A stretch of DNA of 64,000 nt from positions 1-64,000 of the forward strand of contig JAJEKV010000082.1 of NCBI GenBank assembly GCA_021234155.1, given 5' to 3'. A model generated the notes under the pieces. It ran no database searches. It saw only the letters and a program-made list of their open reading frames with translations, and had not been told where the DNA came from. This document shows, in pieces, positions 22,500-43,260 of the stretch (positions within the stretch are counted from its first letter, which is position 1; the number at the start of each line of letters is the position of its first letter). This DNA is from Isoetes taiwanensis (Eukaryota > Streptophyta > Lycopodiopsida > Isoetales > Isoetaceae). A program made the position numbers and the translations under genes.

Positions 22500-23100
22500 A
22501 GTGCTCATACTAAAATGCACAAGCTGATTCTGTCATATGTATGAAATTAAAACGCTTGCATGCTAGACCATTCATTCAATATTGCAAAACTATAAGGCCT
22601 GCAGACCAGAGCATTCAGGAATTTAAAAAACACTGTATTCTTTACATGGATGGGATATTCTTTAAAAAACCTGCATTCTTTACATTGTTTTAATTACATC
22701 TATGTGTTATTCATCCGTGTGTTATTCCTCAGTAGTCTCAAATGCTGGCACAATAGTCTCAAATGCTGTTGAAAAAAGATAAACTGGCATATAAGATTCT
22801 GGCAAATAAGATGGTGCAGCTATTGGAATATTACCCAAAATGGCTTCGAGGTCTGCAACTCTAATTATCAGCTTAGCATTCTCCATTTCAAGCCCCTCCA
22901 GAGCACGACACTACTCATTGAATAAGCTTATGCTTTGCCTATATGCCGGGGGTGAGGAACTTTAGTTGAATACGCGCCAGGTGTATGTTCAATTGAATAC
23001 GCGCCAGGCGCGAATTCATAAATCTGTAAGTTAGAGAGAAAAAACAAATTAGTGATTTCGCGCCATGAGCTAATACCATTCACTTGTAATTTAAATGCCA
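22500..23100. other. Stretch without a recognised gene
   Basis: AT-rich. Two copies of GAATACGCGCCAGG lie at about 22965-23010. No coding or RNA signal is supported. Confidence 0.4.
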
Positions 23101-23129
23101 TGCGTGTATCCTGTATTGTACTTTAAAGC

Positions 23130-23422
23130 AATACTGTAATTTCTTCAGAAGCTGTACTGTAATTTTTAAATTTGAGAGAGCTGAAGTGGAAATAATGAAA
23201 ATATGTTTGTGTGCAAAATGTTTACATTGTGCGAGGTCCAATACATGCCTGGCGTGAAGGCGCATAAAGCTAATTATCAGATGCAATTCACCCCAAGCGT
23301 ATTGGACCCGGGCTTGACAATTTAAACATTTTGCACACAAACATATTTCTCGGCCGCGTGATCTCACTTCAACTCTCTCAAAATTAAGAATGAAAGAGCT
23401 AGAATTCAAAACAGCTTCTGAA
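23130..23422. mobile_element. Foldback element, interrupted by the 12-kb transposon
   Basis: Two arms of about 120 bp pair with each other. Left-arm blocks TTCAGAAGCTGT, TTTGAGAGAG, GTTTGTGTGCAAAATGTTTA and GGTCCAATAC reappear as reverse complements GTATTGGACC, TAAACATTTTGCACACAAAC, CTCTCTCAAA and ACAGCTTCTGAA. The right arm is cut after CAGCTTCTGAA at 23422 and resumes at 35551 (TGAAGAAATTATAGT), which pairs with ACTGTAATTTCTTC at about 23134. The centre of the palindrome is near 23280. Confidence 0.75.
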
Positions 23423-23447
23423 AAGTCGTATTTAATTAAAGTGGGAC
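23423..23447 (+). repeat. Left terminal inverted repeat
   Basis: 25 bp beginning AAGTCGTATTTAATTAAAGT and ending GGGAC; its exact reverse complement is at 35526-35550. TGAA precedes it. Confidence 0.9.
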
Positions 23448-23655
23448 AAATCTTGAATTTTGGGACTCGGACTGAAAATGGGACTCACACACCATAAAAG
23501 AAATTCTGAATTGATTGCTTGAATAGAATTACACATGACACACATAGAATTGGGTTACTTGTTTTCCTCATAAATTTTACAAACCACTAGTTGAGATAGT
23601 TTTCAAACTTCTCAATATTATGTGCCCTCATACAATGATATAGCATGGAGGTTGC

Positions 23656-26480
23656 TCATGGCCTTGTCCATCTCCCTTCTTGGGATCTTGTGTGTGTTGT
23701 CCTTTGCAACGGAGAACTTGGATATGACCATACCACACACTCCACCAATTCCCTCCTTTGAGGGTCAAGATAATTTGCCCTCCACTTCTTCTCCCAGCCG
23801 CTGTATTGCTCCTTCAAGTTGCCCTTCTTGTGTCTCCCAATGGGCTCCCAATATTGAATTTGGAATCGGGGACTTAACTCCTCTCCATCAGGCATAGTGG
23901 TGGTTACATCAGAGAGTGCCACCCCTAACCATATTGGACAGGCCCCCTCATCATCGCCTTACTAGCACAAAGTATCCTTCCTTGATGTCCTCAAAGGGAT
24001 CCCACTGTGAAGATCAAACCACTTCTCGGGCTTTGAGGCCTTATTTCCCACAAACCACTTGGAACCCTTTTTGGGACCCAAGTGAGCATTCTTAGACGTG
24101 CTTGCACCTTGAGAACCCTCCCATCTTGACTCTGGCAAGAACCCGTCTCTTAGCTCCCTCCCACATGGCTGTTCAGTTTCCAAGCATGTCACAACTTTCT
24201 CCCAGTACTTGATTAGGGAGTCCATTTGATTTTTCTTAAGAGTGGAGGTGTGCTTTCCATTTCGAACATCATCCCAAAGGTGTTATGTAATCCTTGATGC
24301 CCTTCACCAGCTTGGCTAGAGTCTTTGACCTGCCTTGAAGGGAGGTAGTGGTTTTGGTTGCCCTTTAGGAATGAGAACTTCACCAAGAAGACCCCTTTGC
24401 CACAACTCGATACCTTGCTGTGCATCCACAACTTGTCACCTGGTCTCCATTTATATTGCATGATTGGTATTCCATCCCTAACCCAAAACTTGAACTGAAG
24501 TGGCTTTGTGTGTCCTGTCAACTGGTCCTTACCATCTAGCAAGTATCCTTCTACAAATGATTTCCAATCTGCAACCTCATCCATCAAGAAAGCCATTGGG
24601 TTGGGGTCAATGCAGCTCTCAAACACATCCATTAGTTCAGGGAGAGTGGTCACGTTTTCTCTCTTGAGCTTGGTAGAGAAAGTTCCAAAGAATCCATCTA
24701 TATCATCATGTATGCCCAACCATCATGAATCCCACTTTCACAACTTTGAATACTCCCACCGCTCCAAGTATGACATTGCCCCAAACATCCATCTATTCTT
24801 GTTTTTTTCCAACAGCTTGTCCAACCGAACACATAGCTCCTCAGTGCGCTGATTTCTCAAGTAAGGGGAAATCATCCCAAGTCCTCCTTGATTCACTAGA
24901 CACCTTGGATGTGAGCTTTTTATCCGCTTTGGTAACAAAGCTGTTGATCATCCATCAAAGCCTCAAAATGGGTGTCAAGGGGAATACCTCCTCCCTTCTA
25001 TCGATCCTTTTCTAGTGTTCTCGTGCACTTGAAAATAGAGCTCACATGGAAGTTTGGATCATCTCTCCATAGATCAAGCACAAAATGACCATATGTTCCA
25101 GTTCCATGACCATGTGTTAATACACCCTTGACTTACTTTTATCCAAAAAGCGCTTTTGACAACGCTTTGGGTAAAGGATCTAGCTTTGGCAAGAAAGTCT
25201 TGTGTTGGTCCATCTTATCATGAATTATACACAAAAATTTGTCCGGCCGCATCTCTAAAATGTTCTCCATCGCCAATACAACTGCCTACATGATATTTGG
25301 TCCCTTTGGTGATCTACAAATTGCTCCCCTAATTGCCATTCTTTCTTTCTCTATTGCAGCTTGATGCAAGTGTATCCTTGAGTTGAATGCAAGTGTTGCA
25401 CTTTGAGAATGGCATGTGTTGTAGGACACTCACGCCCCAGAAGTGAGTGCTCCATAACTTACATGAAATGTGATTGAGAAAGAGGCCTACCTCCAGTAGT
25501 TTCTAGGATGGAGTTGACCTCCTTAAGGCACTCCTTCCGATATAGTGTTGTGGCAACATTCTTTGCACCACTCGCACACCGCGCTCTCGCTCACCTTCGA
25601 CTTGTGAGGCATAGATTGAGACATGTATCTCACAAAGCTCTCAAGACCCAGAATGGCCTTTAGAGTATTTGCTCTAGTTTTCAAAGTGAGTGCATTACCA
25701 TGTTGGAACAAAGTGTGCCCTTTTCTAACCTGCGCCCCAAAGATTCAGAAAATGAAGACTTGCTCACCCCAAGAATCCATCTCAATGCTCTCATACATAC
25801 CTTCATGCCCCTCAATTGATATAGTAGCCATCTGTGTTTTCATCATAGCTGGAATTCCTACACAAGGAGTAAATGAAATTAATCCTATCTTTTTGAAGTC
25901 TGTCCAATGTATTGGGACCTTATCTCGCACGAGGTCATCCACATTGTAATCGACCGGCAATCTAGGTTGCAACACTCTTGTCCCCTAATTGCCTCCAGAT
26001 TTTCTTTGGTTGGTGCCATACTTTCCATCCTTTCTAAATATTTGTCACTTCTAGGCCTCTTGGGCACCTTTGGTCGCCTTTTATGAAAGACATAGCGCCT
26101 CTTCCTTGTGATCAAAGGATGCTCATCGACCACCAAATCTTCCACATGGCCTTGGGTGGGCCTTGGGGTGTGTAGTTCAAGAGGGCAATCTAGAGTATCA
26201 CCATTCTTGTGTGTAATATATCTAATTGGCCATCTCAACTGAGCTTGGGACTCCAAAGAGCCCCGAAAGCACACAATGCAATCACTAGAGCTTCCCGGGA
26301 CATGATTGTATCAACTTCGATAAGAAGCTTCACAATGCCAACTCCAAGATGTTCATCTCCCAGCCTCTCATCATTCACACTATCAAATGGATCAACCGCA
26401 GCTTATTATACCCTCTCAAGAAATACCGCCTGCTGCAAGGGTGCAACAAAAAGGCAACCCCTTCCTCCATCCACAAATTT
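23656..26480 (-). pseudogene. Decayed DUF7869-type (DDE-like) ORF, putative transposase
   Basis: Read right to left, fragments in shifting frames line up with the open copy at 37069-39830. They are a VDPFDSVNDERLGDEHLGVG block (about 26340-26400), PCVGIPAMMKTQM (25850s), an ESFVRYMSQSMPHKS block (25600s), CIIHDKMDQ (about 25196-25231; HDKMD at 25208-25222), LLEKNKNRWMFG (24800s), HDDIDGFFGTFS (24690s), DGFLPESRW (24100s) and the C-terminal W-rich block (23700s). The N-to-C order is preserved but frameshifts and stops are frequent. The motif set HDKMD...LDN/ENKNR...HTHEDVD is what I associate with the DUF7869 family and resembles a DDE-type acidic triad. The 3' end lies about 200 bp from the left TIR, as expected for a transposase gene. 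Confidence 0.7.
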
Positions 26481-27740
26481 TATGACCATATGAAAACTCA
26501 CATTAAAACCATACAAACAACAAATATGACCATATGAAATATAAAACCATACAAACATATTAAATATAATCATATTATATCATACAACCATATTAACTAA
26601 AATCATACAACCATATTAACTAAAATCATATAACCATATTAAAGCATACAACCACACTCATTCTAAACCATATGTAAACATTGTAAACATATATAACCAT
26701 TGAAACTATTCAACCATTGAAACCTTATTAAATACATAAAATAACATATATAAACATATAACCTACCCTTTCATATCTTGTCATGTCCACGCATGCTTCT
26801 TCTTGAGGTCGAACCGCGGGCCATGTCAAGAATCCAAGACCGCCACGCCATGGAGGGCATGGCCCACACGCGGACAATGGTTTTATTATTGCACTTTTAC
26901 GAGGTTCGAGGGTGCACCTGTAATTAATCGCACCCTCTTCCTCTCTCCCCCCACCATTCTTCCTCCCCTGTTTTCTCTGATCACTCATCCTCCCCTGTTT
27001 CCTTAGGGCGCCCGCTTTACCGATCAGGCGATCGATCGAACCGAGCGATTCCAAGGCCATCTTATGACAGCAGCTTGGTCGACGGATCAGGACGCTTCCA
27101 GCACCGAAGTTCTCGCGCAGATTCATTGTTCGAGCTGCGCATCACCGAGAAGAAAGTGAGGCCCTTTTTAGTGCTGCTTTTTAGTTTTCTGTAAGTCCTT
27201 TAGTGCATTTTTACTTATATTCTGTTGTTAGAGGCTCTTATTGATCCCTGATACAATTTACAGCCCGAGAAATCCTTATTCACGCTTTGCCAACGACTAT
27301 ACCCACATGGAAGCTTAACCTCGAAGCCTCCCTCCTCATCCAAAGAAATCTTCCGTGTATGTTTTTGTAATATCATACCCTTTTTAATCTCATTTCTCCA
27401 GATCGTTTCTCCAACGTTTCTCCGTGACTTTTCTCCATTGACTTTTCTCTGTTTTCTCATTGATCTCACTAATCTCATCAAGTATCCGCTTTTCCCTTTG
27501 CATTGTTTTCTCGCTTTTGTTATCTTTTTCTTGCTTGTGGTTGAATTGAATACATTGTACGTGCACAAGTGAGAATAGTGGTTAGAGTAGTAGCAAGCAA
27601 ACCGAGATAGAAATCATCGAGACCGGTGTTAGGAACTAAGATATTGCGAGCATTAACAGTAACATAACTAGGAATGTCTTTCTCCCAAAGAAGAACTAAG
27701 AATAGGAATTGCTTCACGTAATCTCCATTTCTAACTCACA
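26481..27740. other. AT-rich repeats and unassigned sequence inside the transposon
   Basis: ACCATATTAACTAAAATCAT is repeated two to three times at about 26585-26650 within an ACCATATnAA-rich stretch. A GC-richer segment follows at 26790-27130, with a 132-codon minus-strand frame (26728-27126) I do not recognise. It may hold the 5' end of the DUF7869-type gene. Confidence 0.4.
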
Positions 27741-27749
27741 AAGAAATCC

Positions 27750-29280
27750 ATCGCAGAGAGACATGCGTAAGGGAGTGGCGAAGTTGGGAATACTTCCAGC
27801 TTGCCAACAGTCCAGAAGTACAGTTTTTTCTTCACTCGAAGTCGAGAACTTCCCGACCGGGCGAGGGCAGAAGAGGGAGTGTACACTCCGGACTGCTGGC
27901 CGGGTTGAGGGATTCTCGACTCACGATTCGGGATTGCACAGCCTACCCAATGTCTTCACATTCTTTAGAACCCCGCTGCAGCCTCTCGACTCGCGGAGTC
28001 GAGAATGTGATACCCCGCCAATGGTTTCTTGTGCAAGCCAGCGTGCCTCCACCCGCCCGAGCCACTCCTTCAAACCATGCTCATCTAATATTGGCGAAGA
28101 GGACCGGCTCCGGACCGGGTGGGAGGCTCCTCGGCCGACCAACCATAGTTGTTGGTCGCCGACTCGCGAGTCGAGAAAAACGCAGTGCACTCCCACTTGT
28201 AGCTGGGCTCCAGACAGCTTAACCACTCTCCTTCTATCTTCCGCCGACACGAAGGGAAGTGGTTTTCACCGCGAGCAGCCAACTCTTAGCAACCCAATTC
28301 TCTCAGGTGTGGTCGCAAGGGCCTCTACCCAATCAAAGACCGCCTCCTTCGAACCATCTTCGCATTAATATTGGCGGGGATGGGCTCTGATTGGGTGGAG
28401 GCCTCGGGCGACCAATCATTGAGGTGCTGGCCGCCACTCGTGAGTCGAGAAAACGGCCAGCTCCATGCACTCTAGAGCCGGGCTCGCAGACGCCTCTTAA
28501 CAACTCTCCTTCTATCTTCCTGACATTGGGCGTAAGGGAAGTTGTTTTGACCGGTTCAGCAGGCCAACTCTTAGCAACCCACAGGAAACCACACGAAGCT
28601 TCATGCATTCTCGCTCAATGAGTGGGAATGCCTTACCCAACCGGCACTCCATGTGTACCATCCGAGTTCTCGATGGTTAAGGCATTCTCGACGGCGCGAG
28701 TCGAGAATATAGACACGGGCCAACTCTAGCAACCCACGTGGAAACCATAGAGCTTGTTTGGAAACCATAGATTCGCCAAGAAGTCGGGAATGCCTTTAAC
28801 CAACAGGCACTCGCGGTGTACTAACCGAGTTTCGATGGTTAAGGCATTCTCGACTTATGAAGTCGAGAATGTAGACAGTACCAACAAGCCGCGATTCCCT
28901 CTGCAAGTCGAGAATCCCTTAGCAGCCAATTCTCCCGTATGGTAGCAAAGGGCCTCACTCCAGCCGAGTCACTCTCCTTCGAACCATCTTCGCCGAGTAT
29001 TGGCAAGGGAGGGGCTCTGACCGGGTGGAGGCCTCTACAACCAACCACGTGGAAACCACAGAGAGGAAGCCAAGGCTTGCATTCTCTACAAGTACCGAGA
29101 CTTTCTATTCTCCCCTGCTTTTAGTCCCAAGTGCATCTAGCCTGCCCTGAGCCACTCCTCCTTCGAACCATCTTCCTAATATTGCTAAGAGGAGTGGTTC
29201 TGGACAGGTGGAGGCCCCTCCGACTAACTACAAGAGGATGCATTTGAACCGCATCTCCCGGCCTTAGTCCTAGCCTGATC
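27750..29280. repeat. Palindrome-rich tandem repeat zone of the transposon
   Basis: A block of about 70 bp starting TCCTTCRAACCATSYTC, with ATATTGGCRARGA and GGTGGAGGCC, recurs at about 28069, 28346, 28976 and 29160. A second block (AACTCTCCTTCTATCTTCC ... CCAACTCTTAGCAACCCA) recurs at about 28216 and 28500. A third (TCGATGGTTAAGGCATTCTCGAC) recurs at 28670 and 28832. Between them lie palindromes of the TTCTCGACTCGCGAGTCGAGAA type (27985-28003, 28161-28174, 28684-28708, 28845-28870). No convincing coding frame is present. Confidence 0.7.
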
Positions 29281-30900
29281 TATGTACAACATTCCAAGTA
29301 AAAAACCCATGAAAAAAAACACACCTAAACGGAATCGTTTTTTACCCCCGATCCATTGTTTCCTTTGCCGAAAGCATCTCTCAACCCGTAGAGTAAATCA
29401 TCTCTCAAGCTGAAAAATGCCGGACAAGGAAACGATGAACTGGCCGAGCTTATCAGCCAGTTCCATTATTTAAACACATACGCATGTTCTACGTTTAAAT
29501 AACATAGGCATCTCTCAAACTCACCTCTTCACGCAGAATTCCTTGGGCCATCAGACACGGATCCCGCAGCCTCACCTAGAGTCTTTGCTTTTTCTCGTCG
29601 GTCTCTTCAAGAGTGTATTAAGATCTAATACTTGTATCATCGCGATTCTCAAGCAGATCCCCTCGCTCCATGGCGCCAAGCAGTTGTAGAGTTCCCGTGA
29701 ACCGGCAGCCTCTCTCCGCTTCCTACCTTAGCTCGTGCTCATCGATCAAATCAACCGCTGCAATAGGACGCGCGGTCGTGAAAAACACATATGCAAGGCG
29801 CTTGTTAGTAGTGTTCTTTACCGCGCCGCAAGGGCGCCATTCCGAAGTCGCTAACGGCCGATGCTCCTCCCAACTCGAGGTCCCCAATGCCGCAGTGGAA
29901 GATAAACTACGCCCGGCCACTTAGTCCCTTGATGTGATTAAATTTCGAAATAGTGTTTGGGCGGGTTAAAGCCGATCCGGCTGCACCTTTAGCCCGCTTT
30001 TTTTTCATAAATGATTGCATGTCCTTAACTTCAAATTAAAGAACACCATTTACCATCTTTTTACATGCAGTCCTAAAACTCACAACGCTACGGAGGAGAC
30101 TTAATTTACGAGGGGTCCAAGAGGATGAGAGGGCATAAAGACATGACTCCGCCCAAGAAGCTTAGGCCGGAGGGGATGCTTCTACGGCGGGCAAAAGAAG
30201 AAGAAGAAGACAAACACCCTGTGAGAGCTCGAGGTTTTTCTTTTGTCGGAATACCTTAATCGATCCATCCTTTCTTCTTGCAAAGATTCACCTCTGACTC
30301 ACCGGTGATCACCGGTCAACTCCATTCTTCGGCCATCGAGGGATCGGAGACGAGCTTCTTGAAACAAAGCAGCAGATTCTTGGTGGTATGTCGAGGTATC
30401 GACAAGTGGGAAGGAGAAAGATCTGCTTTCTACACCAAAGGGACAAGAAGAGCTCCCGAGACAAGTACAAGAAAATCGGTGTTGTGCTCTCCGCCTCTCG
30501 CCAGATTCAAAGCATTTAACACTACATGTCGAGGACCGCCGTAAGAGTAAGTTCTATCACACCAAAAATTAGCAGCTTCAAATTATTCTCACTCTTCCAT
30601 GAGCAAGGCTAAGGGCACCAAAAAAGGCCGGGCGCTTTTAAATTGTCGTAACCTTGGGTGGAAGGATCCGAAGGGATGAAGGAGGCCGAACCCTAACATC
30701 CGTGGAGCTTGGTATGGAGATTTCGTGAGTCGTGGAAAAACTGCTCAATACGGGAGCTTCACTTCTACCGCGGGTGAAGACTCTACAACACTCTACAGTT
30801 GGGGAATGAAGTTGTGGTTCATACACAAAAAGTCCACCAAAAACAAAGATGGGGATGATGACACCACACCGGGAGGAATCAGATGACTAAGGAGACGTAA
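29281..30900. other. Transposon cargo, unassigned
   Basis: Short open frames only. One at 29670-29924 (84 codons, MAPSSCRVPVNRQPLSASYL...) could be a transit-peptide-like first exon. Adjacent hairpins GAACTGGC...GCCAGTTC and TTATTTAAAC...GTTTAAATAA lie at about 29428-29505. The stretch 30150-30240 is charged in one frame (KEEEEDKHPVRARGFSF). I cannot assign a function. Confidence 0.3.
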
Positions 30901-30903
30901 GAT

Positions 30904-33360
30904 ATGGTCGAGTCCCCATTAATGGATCCGCATGATCGATCGATTTCACAGAGAGGGGCACGTAAAATGGAGCTACTAGCTCAAGATATCCGCTGGGAAT
31001 ATCACACAAGCCGCCAGCCGGACATTAGACTACCGGAAGGTTTGCACGGGAGATGCCGCCTTGTTCAACCATTGTGGAATTTAATCCAAAGACACATGCC
31101 GGAGATTCTGAACCGGGATGGTGCTTACATCCCGCTGCAGATCCAATGCCCATGGATGTCATACCTTTTAGCAGATCGACTCAAGAGTTGTTCAATTGGA
31201 AGTCCGAGGAAGATCCAAGGAAAAGGACATCCGGTGACCCGGGTTGTAGACGGCCGCCGATTCGCTTAGGGCGGCGCAAGTATTGCGACGGAGAAGGAGG
31301 TGCCGCAGCGATCAAGGATAGATATGCCAAGCGTGAGTGCAGAAGTTCTTCTACGGAGACGCCAAAGAACCGAACCGCCAAAGATTAGCCACCGCTGTAA
31401 CACAATAGCAAATGAAAGCGAAGCTACGAAGGTAAATAACTCTCTCAATCCTAACATTTGCCGACATCATCGGGGTTTCGACTCAGCGAAAGTCCGAAAG
31501 CCAGGGTAACACGTAAAATCAAAGGATGTAGTTTTTTCGACTCAGCGAGTCGAGAAAACCCGCAGAAGTAAAAAGAAAATTAGACATTCAGGATTTTTCG
31601 ACTCGCGAAGTCGAGAAAGCCCTACCATCTTGACGCTTTTCCCGATTATCATCGGGGTTTCGACCGCGAGTCGAGAAAGCCGTGGTAAACACGTAAAATC
31701 AAAGGATGCAGAGCTTTCGACTCGCGAAGTCGAGAAAAACCCAAATAAGTAAAAGAAGGGGTTTGTAGATACTATCATGCTCGACATTGGTACATTGATC
31801 GCATGCAGCCCTTTATCCCCGACCAGATCATACACGCCAGGCAACAAAGTGGAAAGCATTGGGTTGTCCTCGGCCCTAAAGGAAACGTGGCTCCCCTGAT
31901 AAGTGGAAGACCTTTGAGAAACTATGCAGATATGTTCTCACTGGAGGGCCAGGAAGATGATGAGGGAGAGGATGAAGAGGAGAAGAAGAAGAGAACACCA
32001 AGGAAAGGCAGTGGAGTCTCTCTCGCACTCAATATGACCTCATTCTTAGCAATCGAGGCGCCCTGGGAGAAATGGACCGAGATATGGGCTCAATGGACAA
32101 GAGGCAAGTGAAGGACAGCAATGGAGAATTTCCATCTAGGCCGGACCCCAAGTTGTTTGACAAGCAGCTCATGAAGAGGATACTGTGGCCTCACGGACAA
32201 AGAAACGCTTGACCTGCAAGGCGTAATCTTGGATGGAACAATCCCCGCTAAGGAAGACTAGAGTCCTAAAATGCAAGACGCTAAAGGATTATGCCACGCC
32301 CCTAAAGTTTACAAAGTAAGTTAGGGAAGAAGGCATCACTTGAAGTTCGCGCAATGTTGCATCTAATGAATACCATGACTTTGATTATTACAAGGAAAGG
32401 CTGCCCCTTGATGAGGAAGACATGAAGGAATTGAACCGCCTATGTCAACCCTACATCAACACCAAGCTGAAGTTTAACGCCAAAACCCTTCCTTTCCCGA
32501 ACGCTATGGCAATTCTCAAGAGGAAGCTTGGATTCTGGGTGGTCCCATTTAAGGCCCGGCGATAGCTCCCCCATTTCTCGTAACTTTGGGACACAAGGGA
32601 TTTGGTGGTCCGAATCGCACCGGACCCGCGGGCACTATTTGTCATCAATATGATCAAGACCCCACCCTTTTTTATGACAAAGCCGACATAGAGCGTTGGT
32701 ACAAGACGGTCCGACATGACCGACTCGGATACTTTCGGTTTCTTTGTCTTTTTGCATGCCCGCAATCGATTAAACCGCTGCCTCCCAATGGGCAACCGAT
32801 ATTAACTTCACCAACAAGATCATGTACTCCATATACCTAACTTGATCATGAGTGTAGACTTGGCTTGCCAAGGCACCAAGCTTTGCCAACATAGTTTTGG
32901 TTTTGATTTCAAGATCGGTCAGACCCGATAAGTGGTGGTCTAGCGAAAGCATCATTATCTCGATGTGTTCATGATCTCTCAAGAGCAGATGGAACCCTGG
33001 AAGGGGGGCAGATTTATGGAGGATGTTCCATCGATGGACAAGGTCAGCAAAGATGGTGCGACAGGTCCTATACATAGAATTCCTATCCGGCCAAGAGTTA
33101 TCAAGTACTTCATAACCAGCTTGGTCGAGGAAGATCAAATTGTATGCGAGTGGTACATGAATGGCCTGTTCTCTCAGGGGGCTATGCTGTTTGGAATGAA
33201 ACCTATATCCGTGGTTGGAAATAAGGACATGGTTGAAACCATTCGGTCATACCTGGATCTGCTTCATGAGCATTTCAAGGGGAGGAAGACAAATGGAAGC
33301 AGTAAAGACGACGAGGACGAGGGAGACCGCGGACGTGAGACGGAATGTCCTAAGGTTTAG
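30904..33360 (+). pseudogene. Fragmented multi-exon cargo gene of unknown function
   Basis: Several plus-strand stretches look coding. They are 30904-31269, an overlapping frame to 31388 (LFNWKSEEDPRKRTSGDPG), 31803-32111 (PFIPDQIIHARQQSGKHW, then an acidic EGQEDDEGEDEEEKKK run), about 32120-32190 (GEFPSRPDPKLFDKQLMKRI), about 32385-32560 (DYYKERLPLDEEDMKELNRL and FPNAMAILKRKLGFWVVPFK) and 32965-33360 (CEWYMNGLFSQGAMLFGMKP, acidic tail). A donor, AAG|GTAAAT, near 31429 and an acceptor, GCATGCAG, near 31809 would bracket an intron full of GTCGAG palindromes. Stops and frame changes between the pieces indicate decay or unresolved introns. I do not recognise the family. Confidence 0.35.
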
Positions 33361-33607
33361 ACAAGGATACGCCAACGTATTCTTGAGAATCTGAGATTGA
33401 GGTGAGTTTACTTTGCTCTATCGGTGTTTCTCGACTCGTGAGTCGAAAAACTCGCTTCCTTTCAATACCTTTTTTTTTTCATTCTCGACTCAGCGAGTCG
33501 AAAACTCGCTTCTTTCTCGGACAGATGTCATCATTTCGTGGAATTCCGTGTCAACGAGTCCGGATCATTGTCATTGGGCAGCGGTTCACGCCGCGAGGAG
33601 GAGAATG

Positions 33608-34200
33608 AAAAGGACAAAGACAATCCAGAAAGCAAGACACCGCCACGCCTTGAAAGGACCTGAAATGATAATGATCCCCGATTTGGATCCCGATGAACCG
33701 GATATATGGTCGAGCCAAACTCCAACGGGATCCACTGGTCCCGCCAAGCTTGTAATATTTGACGCCAATGGAGTATTAGCTGCAGATACCACGATAAAGA
33801 CGCCCCCAGATTAACACCTCGCAGATCCCACCCGAAACGGAGCAGCAAAAATAGTGTATCCGAGGCCTAGAGCTAAGGAAATTATTGAATGGTGCATTGA
33901 ACGGGATTCGGCGGGCATATGGTCTTGTATGGCAAAGAAAAAAATATTGTCAATGTTCTTGGTGTTCTCGCATTTCAGTTTTGAAGTTCAAGTTCGCTTG
34001 GGGAAGTTTTAAAGGGTCGAAAGCATGTGTCGGACCTCGATCCAGCCATCACAAAGGGGAAGCCTATAATGGTGAAAAGGTGGACAGGGTTTATGAGCAA
34101 TTCCGTGACTATGGCAAACACAACACGCCGATCATAGACGACTCGCCTACAAGTGCTATCATAACGCCGCAAAAATACAATCATTGCTAAGCCATATCGA
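33608..34200 (+). pseudogene. FCP1-like (NIF/HAD) phosphatase remnant
   Basis: From an ATG at 33608 the frame reaches LVIFDANGVLAAD at about 33748, which fits the first HAD motif of atypical plant FCP1-homology proteins. After an in-frame TAA (33812) the same frame continues with YPRPRAKEIIEWCIERDSAG and IWSCMAKKK, matching the RPxxxEFLxWC and VWSSMxKKN region. An A-run at about 33938-33946 shifts the frame. Then come GKPIMVK, KVDRVYEQFRDYGKHNTPII and DDSPTSAI, matching the KDL..V...F...YN..NTLLLDDSPYKA end of the domain. Known members are Ser/Thr phosphatases or inactive relatives. At least three disruptions make this a pseudogene copy carried inside the transposon. Confidence 0.55.
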
Positions 34201-35525
34201 CCAAGAATATGAGACGGATAGGTGGTTGTCCTTGAACCGTGGTCCCCGCCTTGGCAGAATCCCGCTTTGCCATTCTTGTCGCCGATGTGCTTCTCAACTA
34301 TCCGAGCCTCACCTGAACCCGATCCAGAGAGCAAGGCGATCATGAAAGCTATGGACGCACAAATATTTTGGTGAACAAGAAGAGTGACCCTCGCCGATAG
34401 TCAAATTGTGTGAATATTGTAAACAAACGTGAAATGTATTGAACATTTTGTAATGAATATACTTGTATATTGAGTTTTGATGCCTTTCTCGACTCACGAA
34501 GTCGAGAAAGGCATGCTTGTCCTATTGATGAGACCATTTGTATGTTTGATTGTGTGACCGATGCGCCCACAATGTATTATGATGATGCTTCTACGCTGCA
34601 TTTGGCCTTTCGACTCGCGAAGTCGAGAAAAGACACTACTTCCCACGCCATTGGATGCAGCTTGTATGGAATGAATGTTCTCCATTGTAATTTGATTTCA
34701 ACATTCTTTTCTTCGTTTTGACTAATGGCACCGTGAATTGTTAATCATACTCTCCTTGCTCCGTGGTTCGTGCATGATCCGACACCAGCCATTGCATCCC
34801 GCCAGCATCACAGTAGACCGCCCAGCGGCATGAGATCCCGCCAAGGCGAAGAAATACCGCTCAAGTAATGCATCCCCGGCCACGCTACACTCTTGCCCGG
34901 CCTTTGGGATAAGGTTGCTCGGGAATTCGTGAGGTTGCTCGCTACACCCGGGATAAAGAACAGCTAAGAACAAAGAGAAAGTCCAGGAAGTTCAAAGCAT
35001 CTTGCAAGCATTGCATAACATCCACGGAGGTTGGGGAAGGAGCATATTCGATGGAAGGTCAGCGGGAGGCGAGTGGAGAAGCTCGGGTGGATGTGTCGGC
35101 CGGGTAGCTCCGTGAGGCACCTCCACGGAGGCATTCCACACCCTTCAGGTTGCCCCCAAGGCTTACAAATGGGCGTGAAGAAGCGCCGCTTAGTTAATCC
35201 CCTAAGGTGGACCACCTACGAAGATGATGTAATCAGAAGTGACAAAGAAGACCACCATGGTCTCAAGGCCCCATGTAAAATACATTGTACTGCTCAATTT
35301 ATTAATAAAAATTTTTTTCAACTAGATCTTTGGTTTCAAACTTTAATGAATTTCCTTTGTTTCAGCTTGCATTGTTCTTGTTCTCACTCGCTAACTGTGA
35401 GAAAACTGCAGCAAAGCTTGAATGCGAAGTTTTATTCAAAAATTGAATTAAGGATAGTTTTCGGCTCGGGGTGCTCCTTTTTGTGTAAATTAACAGGGTT
35501 CCGGAAAAAAGTGGGAATGGAATGA
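34201..35525. other. Right part of transposon, unassigned
   Basis: Two strong palindromes (34487-34508 and 34607-34628) follow the FCP1-like remnant. A plus-strand frame of 164 codons (35031-35525) starts Arg/Gly-rich and runs into the TIR, so it is probably not a gene. The last 250 bp is AT-rich subterminal sequence. Confidence 0.35.
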
Positions 35526-35550
35526 GTCCCACTTTAATTAAATACGACTT
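35526..35550 (-). repeat. Right terminal inverted repeat
   Basis: Exact reverse complement of 23423-23447, followed directly by the TGAA duplication at 35551-35554. Confidence 0.9.
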
Positions 35551-35554
35551 TGAA

Positions 35555-35830
35555 GAAATTATAGTTATGCTTTCAAGTTAGAGTTGACACTAAAGAAACA
35601 TATTGCAGTCATTAAATCCTTGTATTGCCATTGAAAATTTTTACATAGGGCCTTTTATTAGAGTTGCGGGAATTCAAAACACCTTCTCAGTAAATTATAG
35701 TTCTGCTTTCAAGTTAGAGTAGAAACTAAAGAAACATATTACAGTCAGTAAATCCTTGTATTGCCATTGAAAAATTTTACATAAGGCCTTTTATTAGAGT
35801 TGCCCAGCTCTGTGTTACAAAATTACAGAA
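35555..35830. repeat. 136-bp tandem duplication flanking the transposon
   Basis: TTTCAAGTTAGAGT starts at 35571 and 35707, followed by AAACTAAAGAAACATATT, AATCCTTGTATTGCCATTGA and GGCCTTTTATTAGAGTTG in both units. The second unit preserves the uninterrupted version of the transposon target site. Confidence 0.85.
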
Positions 35831-35944
35831 GTTCTAGGCAGTTTAAGAAGACATTCATAATCCTCATTTGAGGCCTTTTTTGGAGATGCCCATTTTTTCT
35901 TCTGAACCAAAAACTAAATAACAAAAACAAAAAAAAAAATTCAG

Positions 35945-36379
35945 CCCTCTACCTCCTCCCTCTTCTTCCTCATCCTCTTCTTTCTCCGAAGCTTTCATCG
36001 CCATCTTCATCGGGATGTCTTCGCAGCATCTTCGCTCTTGAGGAGGAGAGGGCGCCCATAATCACCGCTTTTTTTTCTTCGTCTACCTGCTTCCTCCATT
36101 TCTTCTTCTTTTTCAATCTCGTTCTCCATCTCCTCATCTGAATCAAGGGGATTATGGGGACCGAGGCTGCTCGCTTTGGTGCTCGATAATCTTTTCCCTT
36201 AAGCTTGCCCCTGCAGAATAACTCCTCGAATTATCCTGGACCGGTGGTGCGGAAGGCAGCCACAAATGCATCCTCAATGGAGGGGGAATGGATTTCTTTA
36301 TCAATTTTTTATCGCCTCTTCGCCTCCTGAGGCAGTCCCGGGGATGGAGCGGACGAGGCCAGGCAGCATGGCTCACCAT
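35945..36379 (-). other. Acidic/basic low-complexity coding-like stretch, minus strand
   Basis: A 75-codon frame (36379-36152) is followed, in other frames, by segments such as LDSDEEMENEIEKEEEMEEA and HPDEDGDESFGEREEDEEEE. This looks like a charged tail of a nuclear protein or a degraded TE accessory protein, with frame breaks. No family is recognised. Confidence 0.25.
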
Positions 36380-37060
36380 GGTAGAAGGTGCTAGAAATCA
36401 ATGAAGGCGCTAGAAGGAAGAAAGGATTGGCGGTTGAAAGAATGGAGGGTTTCATGCAAGATATAGAGTAGTTGCATGCAAGGTTTCTTATAGGCGCGGT
36501 TGTAATTATGATTCCATCACATCATACAAGATTTATATCATATACGAATTACCTATCATTACTTCTATTGAATTAATTACTCTAGGTTATCATTAATTCT
36601 CTATAGAATTACCCACATGTCAGCTATACTTAAAACCTATGTTTTCATTAATTTTGTATAATTACCTAGACCCCAGCTATACTTACAACCAACTTTGGCC
36701 CATCTAGATTTACGACCTATACTTACCTCATTAGTACTACTAGCATACACCCTATGTTACCATTAATTTTGCAATAATTGCCTACACCTAAGCTATACTT
36801 ACAACCTATTTTTGGCTGCACTTACAACATATATTTGTCCATTTAATGGTTTTTTTGGTATTTCTTAAAGTTCCCTTTAATCGGTTCTCAAAATTACTTT
36901 GTCCTTTTTTCGAACTATATTAAGACATTTCACTTTATATAGGTGAAGCGTGTGGATCCTAAAAAGGGTAAAAATGTAATACCTATCCCCCCAACATGTT
37001 TCAACATTGTTACATGTTCTTATCACATTGTTACCCCATTGTAAACATTGTTCTTGTAGG
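36380..37060. other. AT-rich stretch upstream of the second DUF7869-type element
   Basis: Repeated CTACACC/CTATACTTACAACCTA phrases occur at 36620-36830. No gene is supported. Confidence 0.4.
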
Positions 37061-37068
37061 TCAATGCT

Positions 37069-37335
37069 GTGGACCACCCAAAGGGTGTTGAGGCTGAGAC
37101 TACTAAGCAAATTATCCTCTATAGTAGGTTGGATTGGATGAATAAGAAGGTGAAACTGAAGCACCAATGCAATAAGAAGCTAGTAGGTGAAGGAACTATC
37201 ATACTAGCTGATCCTATCCAGGCTGTCAATGTTGAAAGGTTAGGAGAGGATAAAGTGGGTGTGGCCATAACAAGTTTAGAGGAAAAATGGAAGGAAAAAG
37301 GATCAAATCACCGGGATTGCAATCGCTTGTATTAA
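37069..37335 (+). CDS. Upstream ORF of the DUF7869-type element (probable 5' exon)
   Basis: An 88-codon frame contains EGTIILADPIQAVNVERLGE and KVGVAI. The corresponding position in the decayed copy encodes VDPFDSVNDERLGDEHLGVG, so this segment is conserved between two element copies and probably belongs to the element's coding capacity. It ends at a TAA before the large frame at 37594. An intron between them (acceptor near TTCTAAG at 37604) is plausible. A separate small protein is the alternative. Confidence 0.4.
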   Translation: MDHPKGVEAETTKQIILYSRLDWMNKKVKLKHQCNKKLVGEGTIILADPIQAVNVERLGEDKVGVAITSLEEKWKEKGSNHRDCNRLY

Positions 37336-37593
37336 ACAATTGAGGTTCCATGCATCATGCCATGGCCTATAGCCCTGCATTGAGTTAATAGGAGAATTCC
37401 TTTTACCAGAGCCGAGGTTGTGGATGACACGATTTTCTTAATGCACCTCCAATAGTTTGCCGGGACCACATTTTCGTGAGAAGAGGGCACACTCAAGGTG
37501 GTGAAACATTATCCTAGCAAGAGGTCCAAGTCAAGTAGTGATTGTTCACGTGAAGCTCACTCAAGGTAAGGGAATGGAATGTTGTTGGGATAA

Positions 37594-39582
37594 TTGTGTT
37601 CTAAGTTTGAAATTGATGAATTAGTGGAAGCAAGAGCCACCTTCCAAGAGTATACTTGTGATGAGAGGAGGACTTACATGTACTCCATTCATGAGCTTGC
37701 ACTTCAAGATGAAAATTTTCCAAAAAAAAAAAATACCCACCTGCTAGGGACATGGATATGTAAAGTTGCATGGATACATATTCATGGTATTCCAATTTCA
37801 TCTTGGCAAAATTGGCAAGCAAGTCATGCAAAGGGGAGTAAAATTGCATTACATGGAAATAATGGCATGTTGAGGCCAACTTCTAGGATCCTGGCTGCTA
37901 GGGAGGTTTTTGAAAAATATGTTGAATTCAATGCTGAGAATATACCACATAAAAGTAGGAAAGATCAACAGGAAAAAATAGTTGTCGAGAAGAGATTGCC
38001 ATCCCATTGTACCCAGAAGAGCATATTGGAGGAAGTGAATGCTTTGCTTCGAGAACTACAGTACCGCAATATCTCAACCCGCCTTAAAGAGAGACTATGG
38101 AGCAAGCACTTCAAGCATGTCACTATAGACACTTCGAACAACTTTGCAAAGTGCAACTTGTGTGCTAAGTTGAAAGAGATTCTTGATAAGACCAAGCAAC
38201 CAAGCCAAAGGGCTAAGATAAGGGAGCAAATGAAAGATCACATGACAGACCAACTATCATGTAGATCCACTTATTGGATGTGGAGAACATTATCATGTTT
38301 GGAACCCAATAACTATGTTTGTATTATACATGACAAGATGGATCAATCAAAGACTTGTTTGCCACAGTATAGTTACATACCCAAGCAAATCAATAGAGCT
38401 TATCCTTTGCAAGTCTCTCTGACAGGTGCAATAGTGCATGGCTCAGTGCCAATTTATTATGGCCATTTTAGTTTGCAATTGTGGAGTGATGATCCTGATT
38501 TTCATATTGGAAGTGTGATGAGGTGCTTGAGGAACTATGAGAGTAGTTATTCTGGTGACCTCCACAACCCTGGAGGTGGTAGCCAACCACTCTTCAGTGC
38601 ATTGTTGGATAGAAAGCCTAATAATTTAGAGAAGTTTACTAAGGCAAGGTTTAGGAAGTCAGGTGCTTCTGAACACGTTGGAGCCTCAAGTTCACGTCCC
38701 CAACCTCGAGATCTACCACCAAGGTTCCTCCTCCAACTTGATAATTGTCTTTGGGCCGAGAATAAAAACAGGTATATGTTCTCATTCCTATCTTATTTAA
38801 CAGTCGTGGGTGTCTTTGAAAGAGTGAATTTAGGGTTCTTAATGCCTGGACATACTCATGAGGATGTGGATGCATTGTTTGGGAAGTATAGTGCGCAGTT
38901 GAAATTTCAATCTGTGACCAATCTTCCTAGACTAATGGAAGTGCTTAGTGAATGCATTTCACCTTCTCCTATAGGGTTGATCATACAAGAGGTGCCTAAT
39001 TGGAAGAATTTTATCGAAGGTTATGCTCTTGATATGGAAGGTCAATCTAGACCTCTTCAGTACACTTTCTGGGTCATGGGAAATAAGCCAATCATGCAAT
39101 GGAAGATGAGACCTTCAGATGATAAATGGAGGCCAGATGAGGGAGTACCTATATGGCACGAAGATGAAAATGGTAAACCTAAGATTCCAAGGGGTCAACC
39201 AAAAGCTCTTACGCCTTTTCCAGAGGTGGATTCATTGCAAAGCACATTGGACGGCATTTCTGAATACATCAAGTATTGGAAAAATAACCCCGATGATACC
39301 AACCTTGCATTGATAGATTATTGGACACGGGTACATGGATTATTGGGACAAGTAGACACATCCTCTGATGAACTCAAAGATGGATGGCTACCTAAGACTA
39401 GGTGGAGAGACTTGATAACACCTGAGGAAGCTGATGATGTGGTTAGTAGTATTCTTGAAGTCCATGGCTCCTCCACTTTGAAAAACACTATGTTGGTCCT
39501 AGGAAAGGAAGGCCTAAATATCTCGGGCTGGAGGATTATGATCCCAAAGATGACTTGCTTTGCCATCAATTTGCACTTATAG
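37594..39582 (+). CDS. DUF7869-type protein, putative DDE-like transposase, long open frame
   Basis: 662 codons are open, beginning just after a TAA. The first in-frame ATG is at 37678, but similarity to the decayed copy starts earlier, so an upstream exon is likely. In order: a CNLC knuckle at residues 187-190, YVCIIHDKMDQ (HDKMD 246-250), a GSVPIYYGHFSL strand (283-294), FLLQLDNCLWAENKNRYMF (LDN 382-384, ENK 389-391) and GHTHEDVDALFGKY (419-432). This motif set is what I know as DUF7869; the spaced Asp residues suggest an RNase H-like DDE core, which is inference. After 39582 the similarity continues in another frame to about 39830 (EEERYKDYWTKRWKRNP). The C-terminus is therefore frameshifted, and a run of 12 A at 37722-37733 is a second possible slip. 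No TIRs were found around this copy. Confidence 0.7.
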   Translation: MCSKFEIDELVEARATFQEYTCDERRTYMYSIHELALQDENFPKKKNTHLLGTWICKVAWIHIHGIPISSWQNWQASHAKGSKIALHGNNGMLRPTSRILAAREVFEKYVEFNAENIPHKSRKDQQEKIVVEKRLPSHCTQKSILEEVNALLRELQYRNISTRLKERLWSKHFKHVTIDTSNNFAKCNLCAKLKEILDKTKQPSQRAKIREQMKDHMTDQLSCRSTYWMWRTLSCLEPNNYVCIIHDKMDQSKTCLPQYSYIPKQINRAYPLQVSLTGAIVHGSVPIYYGHFSLQLWSDDPDFHIGSVMRCLRNYESSYSGDLHNPGGGSQPLFSALLDRKPNNLEKFTKARFRKSGASEHVGASSSRPQPRDLPPRFLLQLDNCLWAENKNRYMFSFLSYLTVVGVFERVNLGFLMPGHTHEDVDALFGKYSAQLKFQSVTNLPRLMEVLSECISPSPIGLIIQEVPNWKNFIEGYALDMEGQSRPLQYTFWVMGNKPIMQWKMRPSDDKWRPDEGVPIWHEDENGKPKIPRGQPKALTPFPEVDSLQSTLDGISEYIKYWKNNPDDTNLALIDYWTRVHGLLGQVDTSSDELKDGWLPKTRWRDLITPEEADDVVSSILEVHGSSTLKNTMLVLGKEGLNISGWRIMIPKMTCFAINLHL

Positions 39583-40103
39583 TACCCGAGCGCACAGAGA
39601 TATATACCTGGGTGGATGGGTTACACCATCTCGCAGGTTTGCAAAGAAGTAGGTGACCGCTTAATGTGAACAAAGTTCGTGTGGAGTGGTGGTGTCCAAA
39701 GGCACCGGCTTAAATGCAAAGGGGAGAGGAAGAAAGGTATAAAGACTATTGGACAAAGAGATGGAAGAGAAACCCTATTGAAGGGGATGATTGGGTTGAG
39801 TTAGATACTATTTTGTTTTCATGGACCCCAAAGGTCATCCTGTGCAAGGCGCTAGGGTTACAATACGTGGAAGTGAGGAAGAAAGCTATGATACATCTAG
39901 GGTCACCGAGAAGTAATTGGCAATATGTAACTTCGACATGCATATGTGAAATATTTTTAATTTTTAATGCAATCATGTTGTCTTTGCCAAAAAAAAAAAG
40001 TCACATTCTCGATGCAAATTTACTAACCCGGGAAAAAGTTGCAGTGCCAAAATGGTCCAAAATCCTGACATAAATCCAATTTAAATGAATGATGGTTCCT
40101 ACA

Positions 40104-40530: not shown

Positions 40531-41056
40531 CTAGTGGAACAATCCCAGTAGATAAAAGACGTTCTCAGCTAGTGCCCTTGTTGCGAGGATCTCAGCTAGT
40601 GGGTGTAAATATGGTAATGCTACCCAAAAAAATGTGAAAGCACATAGCACCTAAAGCACCTATGACTAAGAAACAATGTGTCATAACTTGACCTCCACAA
40701 TTTGTACGCTCCTCTACGGGATCTATATCATCGCTCCTTGCCTTCCTACATCATATATATTGTCCCCGATTTCCAATATGTCTAACCACCAGACTGCTAT
40801 TGCTAGTGGAACAATCCCAGTAGATAAAAGACGTTCTCAGCTAGTGCCCTTGTTGCGAGGATCTCAGCTAGTGGGTGTAAATATGGTAATGCTACCCAAA
40901 AAAATGTGAAAGCACATAGCACCTAAAGCACCTATGACTAAGAAACAATGTGTCATAACTTGACCTCCACAATTTTTATGCGGCCCTCTACGGGATCTAT
41001 ATCATCGCCCTTGCCTTCCTACATCATATATATTGTTTTTAAGTATATAAAACATC
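40511..41056. repeat. Recent 272-bp tandem duplication
   Basis: TAACCACCAGACTGCTATTG starts at 40511 and 40783. The units are nearly identical for about 270 bp, differing mainly in a small indel near TTTRTRCGSNCCTCTACGGG. A reversed piece of the unit (GGGTAGCATTACCATATTTA) is at about 41130. Confidence 0.9.
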
Positions 41057-43260
41057 AACTCTAAGGTCGTTGAAGAGAAATGTCTTCAAGCAAAGCACCT
41101 AAAGCACTTGTCCGGATGGTGCTTTTTGGGTAGCATTACCATATTTACACCCTAGTGCCCTTGCTGCGAGGAAGTTGAAACTTTGACTGGGAAAGGAAAG
41201 ATGAAAATTTTGAAATTTTTGATTTTCCTAGGGAACACAAATCCAATTGGTTGTTCTTGCAAATTTCAATGAGTATGGTAATTGGATGGGTTAAATTGAA
41301 TTGACTTATTTCTCTTTGCCTAATAATTAATCACCATTCCAAATGTTGCGTAATAATTAATGACCATTCCAAACGTGCAAAGTACAACAATATAGATACA
41401 ATTGTCTGGAACTAGCTTTCCTTTAGCATTATATAAAACAATCAGAAGCTCTCTCAGATCATTGTAAACATCAAATTAAAGATCCGGATCACAAAAGAAA
41501 TTAATTCTTCTTCAGACATGGGAGGGAAGAACCTGTGTTATTAGTATTTAATTTGAGGGGATTTATGCGTCTGGCTCCTATGGTGTATGAATTGTTTGAA
41601 AAGGAAACCATTTATCGCAAATCTGAATTAGAGATCCAAGTTTCCAGAATGGCAATGATGGAATGTGTAGAACTGGGAGGATCAAGGGACAACGTATTAA
41701 AAGTCTACATAGAGAACAGGATTTAGCCAGGCAAAGCATCTTGAGATAATTATGACAGTTAGTAATCAACTTGCATTGTTTCTTGAACAACTTGGCAGTC
41801 TCCTCGATGTTAGTGGATGTTAAATCACCAATTAAGATGGGTGGAACTGTGTGATCTATAGTGTAGTGTGTTCTTGTTCCGCCAATACCAAAGACTAACA
41901 ATTATGAAATAGGCATTGGCACCAATCTTCTTCCTCTTATTCTTACAAAAGACATAAAGCTTCTCTCAACGCAATGAATCATGAAAGGGCCAGCATCAAC
42001 ATTTAAATATTTCCAAATGAAGGATAATCGTAAAGGCTCTCCACGCGGTACAATCATAAGAAAGGAACTTAGAACAATATAATCACATGACAATCACATG
42101 ACATGCTTTTGTGAGCTAATCAGAAGGCAATAAGTAGAGAAATATTTCTTCGAATTTGTGTATAATGAAGATCAAACTGAAGGAAGTGAATAATGCTTGA
42201 TGTAATATCTAGTAATGCATAAACATTTTTAATAAGAGGAAGCTTGCTTACCATGGAGCAAAGCTGCACCCCTTTTCTGCTTACCAGATATGACATCATT
42301 GCAAGAAAAAGAGGGACAATGCAAAACCTGTTGAATTTGAGCAAATGCAATGGCTTAAACTCTGTGTCTTCCAGAGCCAACTAATCCATCCATAAAGCAT
42401 GGCTAACACATTACCCAGAAGGCAAATATTGCAGATCGCTTATTTATATGGTGTGGTTATACACTCTGCCTTAGAAGGCAGATATTGCAGCAACTATCTG
42501 CTAGCTGGCCATGGGGAAACATATTCTCAATGGGTAAAGGCCAGGTTCAGAAGGTTTTTTAAACAAGGATTTGAAAAAAGCGTACCTCTGGAAACATACC
42601 TCTGGAACTACCCTAGATGCTACAACACAAACCGGCTATGGTGGACGCATGAGCAGTTGGGTATGGCGGACCCAATGGTTGCGCCCTTGCAGCCGATTGT
42701 AGAGGCCGCACAGGAATCCCTGTGATTGTAGAGCCAATTCTAGAGGTTGTCTTGTGGCAGAGGAACTCCAAAATACTCAATGGCTGGGCAATATCCTACT
42801 CAAACTCCTGAAGCAAGCAACATGTTCGCCCCCAAAGCTTCTTCTGCCGCCATACTCAAAACAGAGAATAAAGACCTTAAACAGAAAAATATCCAACCGC
42901 TCAAGGGTTGATTCACTGTGGTTCAAATTTTATCGCCTTTCATCTCCTTTCTGTGATTTCTAGAGTACCATGCATCAATCTGGGTGTTCAAAATCAGGAT
43001 GGCACCTGAGCTTTCTACAACAGGCAGAGATTGTGCCGAAATTCTCACGACTATGGCTATGGCGGCCGACGGTGAAGGGGCATCATTTTTTTCTTTTCTT
43101 TTCTTGTTGCAAACCGGAACTGAGCAGGGCAGGATTGCTTGCTCTGCAGGGCCGGATTGCTTGTAGGGCAAGAAAGGGACGTCACTCCTTTTTTTTTCAT
43201 TTTTTTTAAAGACACGTGTCTCTCTCAGGTTTTTTTTTGCATCAAACAAAATAGAATAGG
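41057..43260. other. Stretch without a recognised gene
   Basis: The best frame is 42399-42725 (108 codons; RFRRFFKQGFEKSVPLETYL, WWTHEQLGMADP). It has a coding-like composition but matches no family I know. The rest is AT-rich with stops in all frames. Confidence 0.3.

Follow-up and report, generated by a model that had tools for sequence, protein, structure and literature searches.

The stretch of DNA analysed here (the window) comprises 64,000 nucleotides of contig JAJEKV010000082.1 of Isoetes taiwanensis, and it raises the question as to whether two 25-bp inverted repeats lying 12.1 kb apart are the ends of a mobile element and, if so, of which kind. A first-pass annotation, made from the letters alone, had described these repeats as perfect, with TGAA on the outer side of each, and had read the interval as a terminal inverted repeat (TIR) transposon. 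Self-comparison of the window bears out this description: the two TIRs are reverse-complementary at 25 of 25 positions, both begin with AAGTCG, and both are adjoined on the outer side by TGAA. The raw inverted match is 26 bp long, as it includes one base of the TGAA duplication. The element proper occupies positions 23423-35550 (12,128 bp), while the interval 23419-35554 takes in both TGAA copies. The analyses described below confirm that this 12-kb stretch is a real transposon, one of a large family in Isoetes taiwanensis.

The sequence that preceded the insertion can still be read. The two flanks were joined with a single copy of TGAA to give a 100-base query, which aligned without gaps to the second unit of the flanking 136-bp repeat, where TGAA reads TCAG. 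The same query matched the reverse complement of the arm of the foldback at the insertion site without gaps over 36 bp, with ACAGCTTCTGAAGAAATTA identical through the junction (the longer blastn match to the foldback arm extends over 301 bp, at 72% identity and with 17 gap openings). Both of these empty sites had been proposed in the first-pass annotation, and a genomic copy of the flanking repeat, L097, adds a third, being gapless over 120 bp through TGAA with 115 matches. Three such copies were fetched, and L097 is the only one of them with a gapless empty site. The remaining two, L095 and L096, are also without the 12-kb element, with single alignments of 5.4 and 5.6 kb spanning the site, and carry single-base gaps and mismatches beside it.

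The same ends recur throughout the genome. The assembly searched holds 1,658,258,908 bases in 1,110 contigs; the account of the assembly in PMC8566536 gives 1,658.30 Mb in 204 scaffolds and 909 contigs, derived from nanopore and Illumina reads. A genome-wide search for the 25-bp end, with at most 2 mismatches, located it at 1,661 + 1,709 places, against 0 for a reversed-pattern control, and halving this count provides an estimate of ~1,700 elements. A census was then made of facing neighbour pairs among the first 100 exact end places listed, which comprised 34 pairs, and the junctions of all of them were read. Twelve pairs are 3,466-5,798 bp apart, a further 12 are 10,989-12,723 bp apart, and 10 are separated by 14.6-324 kb. 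The ends do, therefore, pair at element-like distances; had they never done so, the inverted repeat would have been a coincidence, as the first-pass annotation pointed out.

Left and right ends differ just inside the TIR, and the pairs could be typed as left-right or like-end on this basis. A perfect 4-bp target site duplication (TSD) is present in 28 of the 30 left-right pairs and in none of the 4 like-end pairs, which constitute an internal control. Two of the pairs, both on contig C128, share identical flanks and are not independent, leaving 27 of 29 distinct sites with a perfect duplication. The duplicated tetramers vary, with no fixed motif, and are mostly AT-rich: TGAA in the window, and TAAA, GTAT, ACAG and GCCA elsewhere. 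Two of them are AAAA (on C79 and in a 55.7-kb pair on C35) and carry low information. Left-right pairs separated by 14.8, 23.5, 24.8, 26.4, 26.7 and 55.7 kb also have perfect 4-bp duplications, a finding suggestive of nested insertions, and the wide pairs on C112, C22, C148, C113 and C35 (23.5-55.7 kb) represent either such insertions or larger elements. The two C128 elements (91575-106371 and 130592-141805) have identical 12-base outer flanks and 24 kb between them, and are the product of either a duplicated segment or an assembly duplication.

Two size classes, of ~4 kb and ~12 kb, dominate the family. Alignment to the window copy extends through most of the length of six 12-kb copies, with a blastn identity of 92.9-94.3% in the leftmost 3.1 kb. 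Eight fetched ~4-kb copies have the two ends in common with the window copy, to the extent given in Table 1, and nothing else. In the four of these eight that were inspected, the left parts contain G-rich repeats and the longest open stretch is 172 aa. The internally deleted derivatives that the first-pass annotation had envisaged thus find a counterpart in the ~4-kb class.

Table 1. Features of the 12-kb element and of its host sequence (positions in the window; 2A, 2B and NIF denote coding blocks)
Feature	Position	Strand	Remarks
Left TSD copy, TGAA	23419-23422		
Left 25-bp TIR	23423-23447	+	Start of a ~65-bp end common with 6 of 8 fetched ~4-kb copies (~43 bp in the other 2)
DUF7869 transposase coding region	23631-26459	-	From tblastn of the L021 protein; frame broken in the window copy
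First palindrome cluster	27826-28877		Between the two divergent coding halves
Coding block 2A	30319-30981	+	226-aa open stretch in L037
Second palindrome cluster	31534-31738		Between blocks 2A and 2B
Coding block 2B	31769-33402	+	532-551 aa open in L037, L038 and L041; no family match
Palindrome	33482-33504		Between blocks 2B and NIF
NIF (PF03031) phosphatase-like block	33653-34384	+	Four other copies have it inside an open stretch (311-384 aa)
Two palindromes	34486-34631		Between the NIF block and the last block
Arg/Ser-rich ~190-aa coding block	34691-35275	+	
Right subterminal stretch, ending in the TIR	35367-35550	+	155-249 aligned bases common to eight fetched ~4-kb copies
Right 25-bp TIR	35526-35550	-	
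Right TSD copy, TGAA	35551-35554		
Part of host, which belongs to a different DUF7869 family and is split by the 12-kb element	22525-40097	+	Right end near 40097
Open DUF7869 transposase frame of the host family, 662 aa	37594-39582	+	127.9 bits

What, then, might mobilize this element? The first-pass annotation noted a non-standard family of open reading frames (ORFs) that it could not name; profile analysis now identifies DUF7869 (PF25273), together with a NIF-phosphatase-like accessory gene. The DUF7869 match in the window spans 24213-24722 and scores 50.7 bits (curated cut-off 26 bits). In another copy, L021, 830 open codons are followed by one in-frame stop and then 155 more, or ~985 codons, and the 830-aa part scores 149.9 bits (8.4e-44) against the same profile. 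A distance of ~145 bp separates this ORF from an end of the 12-kb element family that is slightly mutated. The domain yielded 9,907 first-look candidates in the genome, of which 150 were scored, all above the cut-off, and 0 of 14 control genomes were positive. We aligned 20 ORF pieces from the 12-kb family and other DUF7869 lineages (alignment A1, from which the second DUF7869 ORF of the window was left out). In the motifs HDKMDQ, QLDN and GHTHDxxD, Asp is present in every row that reaches them, these being 15 or 16 of the 20: Asp 460, 463 and 594 in 16 of 16 rows, and Asp 633 and 636 in 15 of 15. These residues are candidates for a DDD-like triad.

The ends, the duplications and the empty site together demonstrate a cut-and-paste-type insertion with a 4-bp stagger, and it is very likely that the stretch is a 12.1-kb DNA (class II) cut-and-paste transposon with a DUF7869 transposase. 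The DUF7869 protein is proposed for this role on account of its location immediately inside the ends, the constraint on it and its Asp motifs. The transposase, whose ~985 codons occupy the minus strand of the element's left half, would bind the 25-bp inverted ends and cut by means of the putative triad. Joining of the element to a target with staggered cuts 4 bp apart would then give rise to the 4-bp duplications, and the ~4-kb copies, which keep the ends alone, may be moved in trans by the same enzyme. The rightward module, consisting of 2A, 2B, the NIF-phosphatase-like protein and the Arg/Ser-rich protein, travels with the 12-kb class and most likely serves in the regulation of, or as a help for, transposition.

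A number of observations weigh against this explanation. Two left-right pairs depart from the perfect 4-bp duplication, that on C16 having 5 bp and that on C6 matching at 3 of 4 bases. By eye, the second DUF7869 ORF of the window reads GHTHEDVD, which places Glu at residue 633. The ratio of non-synonymous to synonymous substitutions (Ka/Ks) is low for the transposase (0.09-0.51 in 15 of 15 pairs), which speaks for constraint; it was obtained, without a test, from copies chosen for their long open frames and after removal of stretches of low identity, and so leans low. The other Ka/Ks values given here were computed in the same way. A profile search of the PDB with the transposase returned a single, unrelated match (E 0.43). 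The ~4-kb copies share just their short ends with the 12-kb class, and it is from these that we infer mobilization in trans. Finally, none of the copies was read with every gene intact: the frames of the window copy are broken, and L021 has its in-frame stop.

To which superfamily could such an element belong? CACTA/EnSpm transposons have CACTA ends and a 3-bp TSD, are large, and possess internal repeats that may bind element proteins, as well as shortened derivatives. The 12-kb element resembles them in its size, its internal repeats and its shortened derivatives; however, its TIR starts with AAGTCG rather than CACTA and its TSD is of 4 bp rather than 3 bp, and this assignment was rejected. 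PIF/Harbinger (TSD of 3 bp), hAT (8 bp), Mutator (about 9 bp) and Tc1/Mariner (TA) were likewise rejected on the basis of the 4-bp TSD, and Pfam scans of the window and of L021 returned no other transposase family. Ginger elements employ a transposase that is similar to the gypsy integrase (rve); with the L021 transposase ORF, matches up to an E of 1 included none to rve, and this group was also discarded.

A better fit is offered by the Sola superfamily (Sola1, Sola2 and Sola3), reportedly defined by Bao et al. in 2009, to which DUF7869 probably belongs. The 12-kb element differs from the published Sola descriptions in being larger than usual, in its NIF-phosphatase-like and 2B genes, where the Sola2 examples carry Fanzor, and in its family-specific palindromes. 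In the passages of PMC10741241 that deal with Sola, these elements have a DDD transposase, 4-bp TSDs and TIRs of 11 to 1124 bp, measure mostly 2-9 kb with some exceeding 15 kb, are present in the moss Physcomitrella, and are not common in flowering plants; Table 1 of PMC9033089 includes a Physcomitrella Sola1. The Sola2 section of PMC3627910 describes a transposase of 888 aa, TIRs of 12-21 bp, AT-rich 4-bp TSDs, and elements that carry Fanzor1 genes. Compared with these descriptions, the anatomy of the 12-kb element is Sola-like: the 25-bp TIR is within the range given in PMC10741241, the TSDs are of 4 bp and mostly AT-rich, the large transposase (~0.9-1.0 kaa) has candidate DDD motifs, the host is a non-flowering plant, and extra genes are known from some Sola2 elements. 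We consider it probable that the element represents a new family of the Sola superfamily proper, be it Sola1, Sola2 or Sola3, an assignment based on anatomy.

The DUF7869 elements might instead form a separate superfamily with 4-bp TSDs. Literature searches by the DUF7869 name and by spellings of the GHTH motif retrieved no paper, and NIF and 2B modules are absent from the Sola passages of PMC10741241 and PMC3627910. The anatomy tested here, in contrast, is inside the published Sola range, and a separate superfamily seems rather unlikely.

The rightward half of the element leads to the question as to whether its genes serve the transposon or are mere passengers. All four of the longer NIF ORFs scanned match PF03031 (34.4, 36.5, 40.6 and 41.6 bits; cut-off 21.8), while two shorter pieces fall below the cut-off (14.2 and 17.3 bits). 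The usual catalytic motif of NIF phosphatases is DxDx(T/V). In the copies seen, motif I is DVNG, DING or DANG, and because the usual DxD is lacking, activity is doubtful and the protein may not be an active phosphatase. A phmmer search with the NIF-like ORF returned just two matches, both at chance level (E 0.73 and 1.2) and outside the NIF domain; the corresponding search with 2B, which is split in copy L040, returned no match. Judged by eye from the region HRIPIRPRV...MKPISVVGNK, 2B was entertained as a degenerate beta-class N6/N4 DNA methyltransferase, but this is not claimed. When a 2B alignment of low diversity (A2) was compared by hhalign with E. coli YhdJ and eight phage methyltransferases (A3), the best block fell on motif I with an E of 0.26 and a probability of 0.23%, which is not significant (the unrelated A1 gave E 0.48). 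Furthermore, no methyltransferase family was found among the Pfam, NCBIfam or PHROG matches of 2B.

The arrangement of these genes was assessed from the top 150 matches for each, out of 9,425, 4,624 and 2,240 candidates, most of the listed matches being without a listed partner. Among these matches, transposase and NIF are divergent in 28 of 28 pairs within 15 kb of each other (24 of them 8.4-9.9 kb apart), and transposase and 2B in 24 of 25, the exception being on C1019. All 53 pairs of 2B and NIF within 3 kb are on the same strand, 2B then NIF, with starts 561-724 bases apart. It has to be considered whether the accessory genes were recently captured from the host, as happens in Pack-MULEs, and have no role for the element. 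Like a Pack-MULE, the 12-kb element carries sequence similar to a cellular protein domain, NIF domains being ordinary eukaryotic domains, and Ka/Ks values of 0.32-0.67 for NIF (10 pairs) and 0.16-0.76 for the Arg/Ser-rich last block (6 pairs) point to weaker constraint than on the transposase. In contrast to Pack-MULEs, however, the accessory genes do not differ from copy to copy, but retain a constant order in the copies seen and, apart from the C1019 pair, wherever listed matches pair. Block 2B, with Ka/Ks of 0.19-0.36 in 6 of 6 pairs, looks about as constrained as the transposase, and the listed NIF matches, 64-92% identical to the query and many with open frames of ~320 aa, are unlike a single recent capture. 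Recent capture without a role is thus an improbable origin for the module.

The broken frames themselves have to be interpreted with care. In 21 pairwise comparisons of the left 3.1 kb of 12-kb copies, we counted 51-85 gap events per ~3.05 kb, mostly of one base, and 1.6-3.8 substitutions per 100. Single-base insertions and deletions (indels) are, therefore, approximately as frequent as substitutions between transposon copies, an odd ratio that is best explained by unpolished nanopore repeats; the assembly probably carries errors. Since the indels may be assembly errors, the frame breaks of the window copy are no proof of decay or age. The frequency of indels is, moreover, a warning for any reading-frame claim made from this assembly. 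That the inverted repeats themselves are a coincidence or an assembly artefact, as indels too frequent for natural divergence might lead one to suspect, is scarcely credible, as indel errors cannot create the matching 4-bp duplications of the TSD census, which refutes this explanation, and the reversed-pattern control was empty.

A further characteristic of the element is a ~23-bp palindrome, TTCTCGACT-CGCGA-AGTCGAGAA, which recurs inside it and was absent from the remainder of the window when up to 4 mismatches were allowed. Of the 44 sites counted in seven 12-kb copies at up to 5 mismatches, 40 are located outside the coding blocks, which make up 54% of the length; the binomial p of 3e-10 is to be read in the light of the copies being related and the sites not independent. 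The 4 exceptional sites all fall in the stretch counted with NIF. Among the eight ~4-kb copies, scanned on one strand with up to 6 mismatches, six contain between one and three sites, and those on C1 and C95 contain none. Genome-wide, 943 + 891 matches were obtained at up to 2 mismatches (control 0). Of the 7 exact sites on contigs C1-C162, 5 are between paired ends, C112:1170811 is 0.9 kb inside a single end, and that on C47 is near none. As an illustration only, 16 of 100 listed sites are within 10 kb of 74 hand-picked gene matches; with shifts of 200 and 500 kb, this number was 0 in both cases.

Other DUF7869 lineages exhibit different palindromes beside the transposase gene: AAAGTGTATTCCGGAATACACTTT or variants in five loci (L027, L028, L029, L031 and L034), CGGTATAAATTTATACCG or variants in four (L030, L032, L035 and L036), and CCTATGCGCGCATAGG in L033. 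For AAAGTGTATTCCGGAATACACTTT, 3,557 sites were counted genome-wide at up to 1 mismatch (control 0). In four loci (L051-L054), sites of the AAAGTGTATTCCGGAATACACTTT type are ~42 bp apart and are arranged in paired clusters 2.1-2.7 kb apart, within a larger repeat; the ends of these elements were not found, similarity continuing beyond both sides. Palindromes are few per locus, 3-10 against 0.1-0.7 expected, and the flanks of the 12-kb element in the window have 13 against 2.9 expected on the left (1-23000) and 6 against 3.7 on the right, which weighs against an easy interpretation. The evidence is the recurrence of one sequence within a lineage, not density. It may be, and we suggest this only tentatively, that the abundant DUF7869 lineages each have a palindrome of their own (TTCTCGACTCGCGAAGTCGAGAA in the present family) that co-evolved with the DNA-binding part of the transposase or of an accessory protein, and that the palindromes in the gaps, along with the phosphatase-like/2B module, regulate or protect the element's own expression. 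The titles and abstract openings listed by literature searches, several of which listed part of their matches, contained no description of the 12-kb family, its accessory module or the lineage-specific palindromes; the accessory genes and the palindromes appear to be undescribed in the literature searched.

The first-pass annotation had the element land in a foldback element. A foldback is indeed present at the site, yet it is part of another DUF7869 transposon family. In three fetched copies of this host, similarity to the window covers both flanks of the insertion and ends at 40097 in each case. It follows that the 12-kb element is a nested insertion within a different DUF7869 family, and that the foldback and the 136-bp repeats belong to the host sequence. 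The host ORF, 2 kb to the right of the 12-kb element, is ~40% identical to the transposase of the latter over 600 aa; the 40 scored of 2,572 candidates include 39 other places, 93-97% identical to it. For the host element, no left end was found, and no convincing inverted repeat of its right end was detected within the initial 3 kb of any of the three copies. Elsewhere in the window, a 199-bp inverted repeat (89%) together with a perfect 32-bp one, at a distance of ~2.7 kb (54641-57335), perhaps marks another inverted-repeat element. The 30-bp sequence GGGTGTAAATATGGTAATGCTACCCAAAAA has two direct and one inverted occurrence at 40601-41152, and degenerate tandem arrays of GAATCT-type units are present at 7-289 and 12994-13774.

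This family, which is estimated at ~1,700 copies and has clear ends, two size classes, a transposase that can be read and an accessory module that recurs, provides a concrete system in which the mechanism of such elements can be tested. It also gives DUF7869, a Pfam domain of unknown function, a transposon setting, while the lineage-specific palindromes predict specific protein-DNA pairs that are directly testable.

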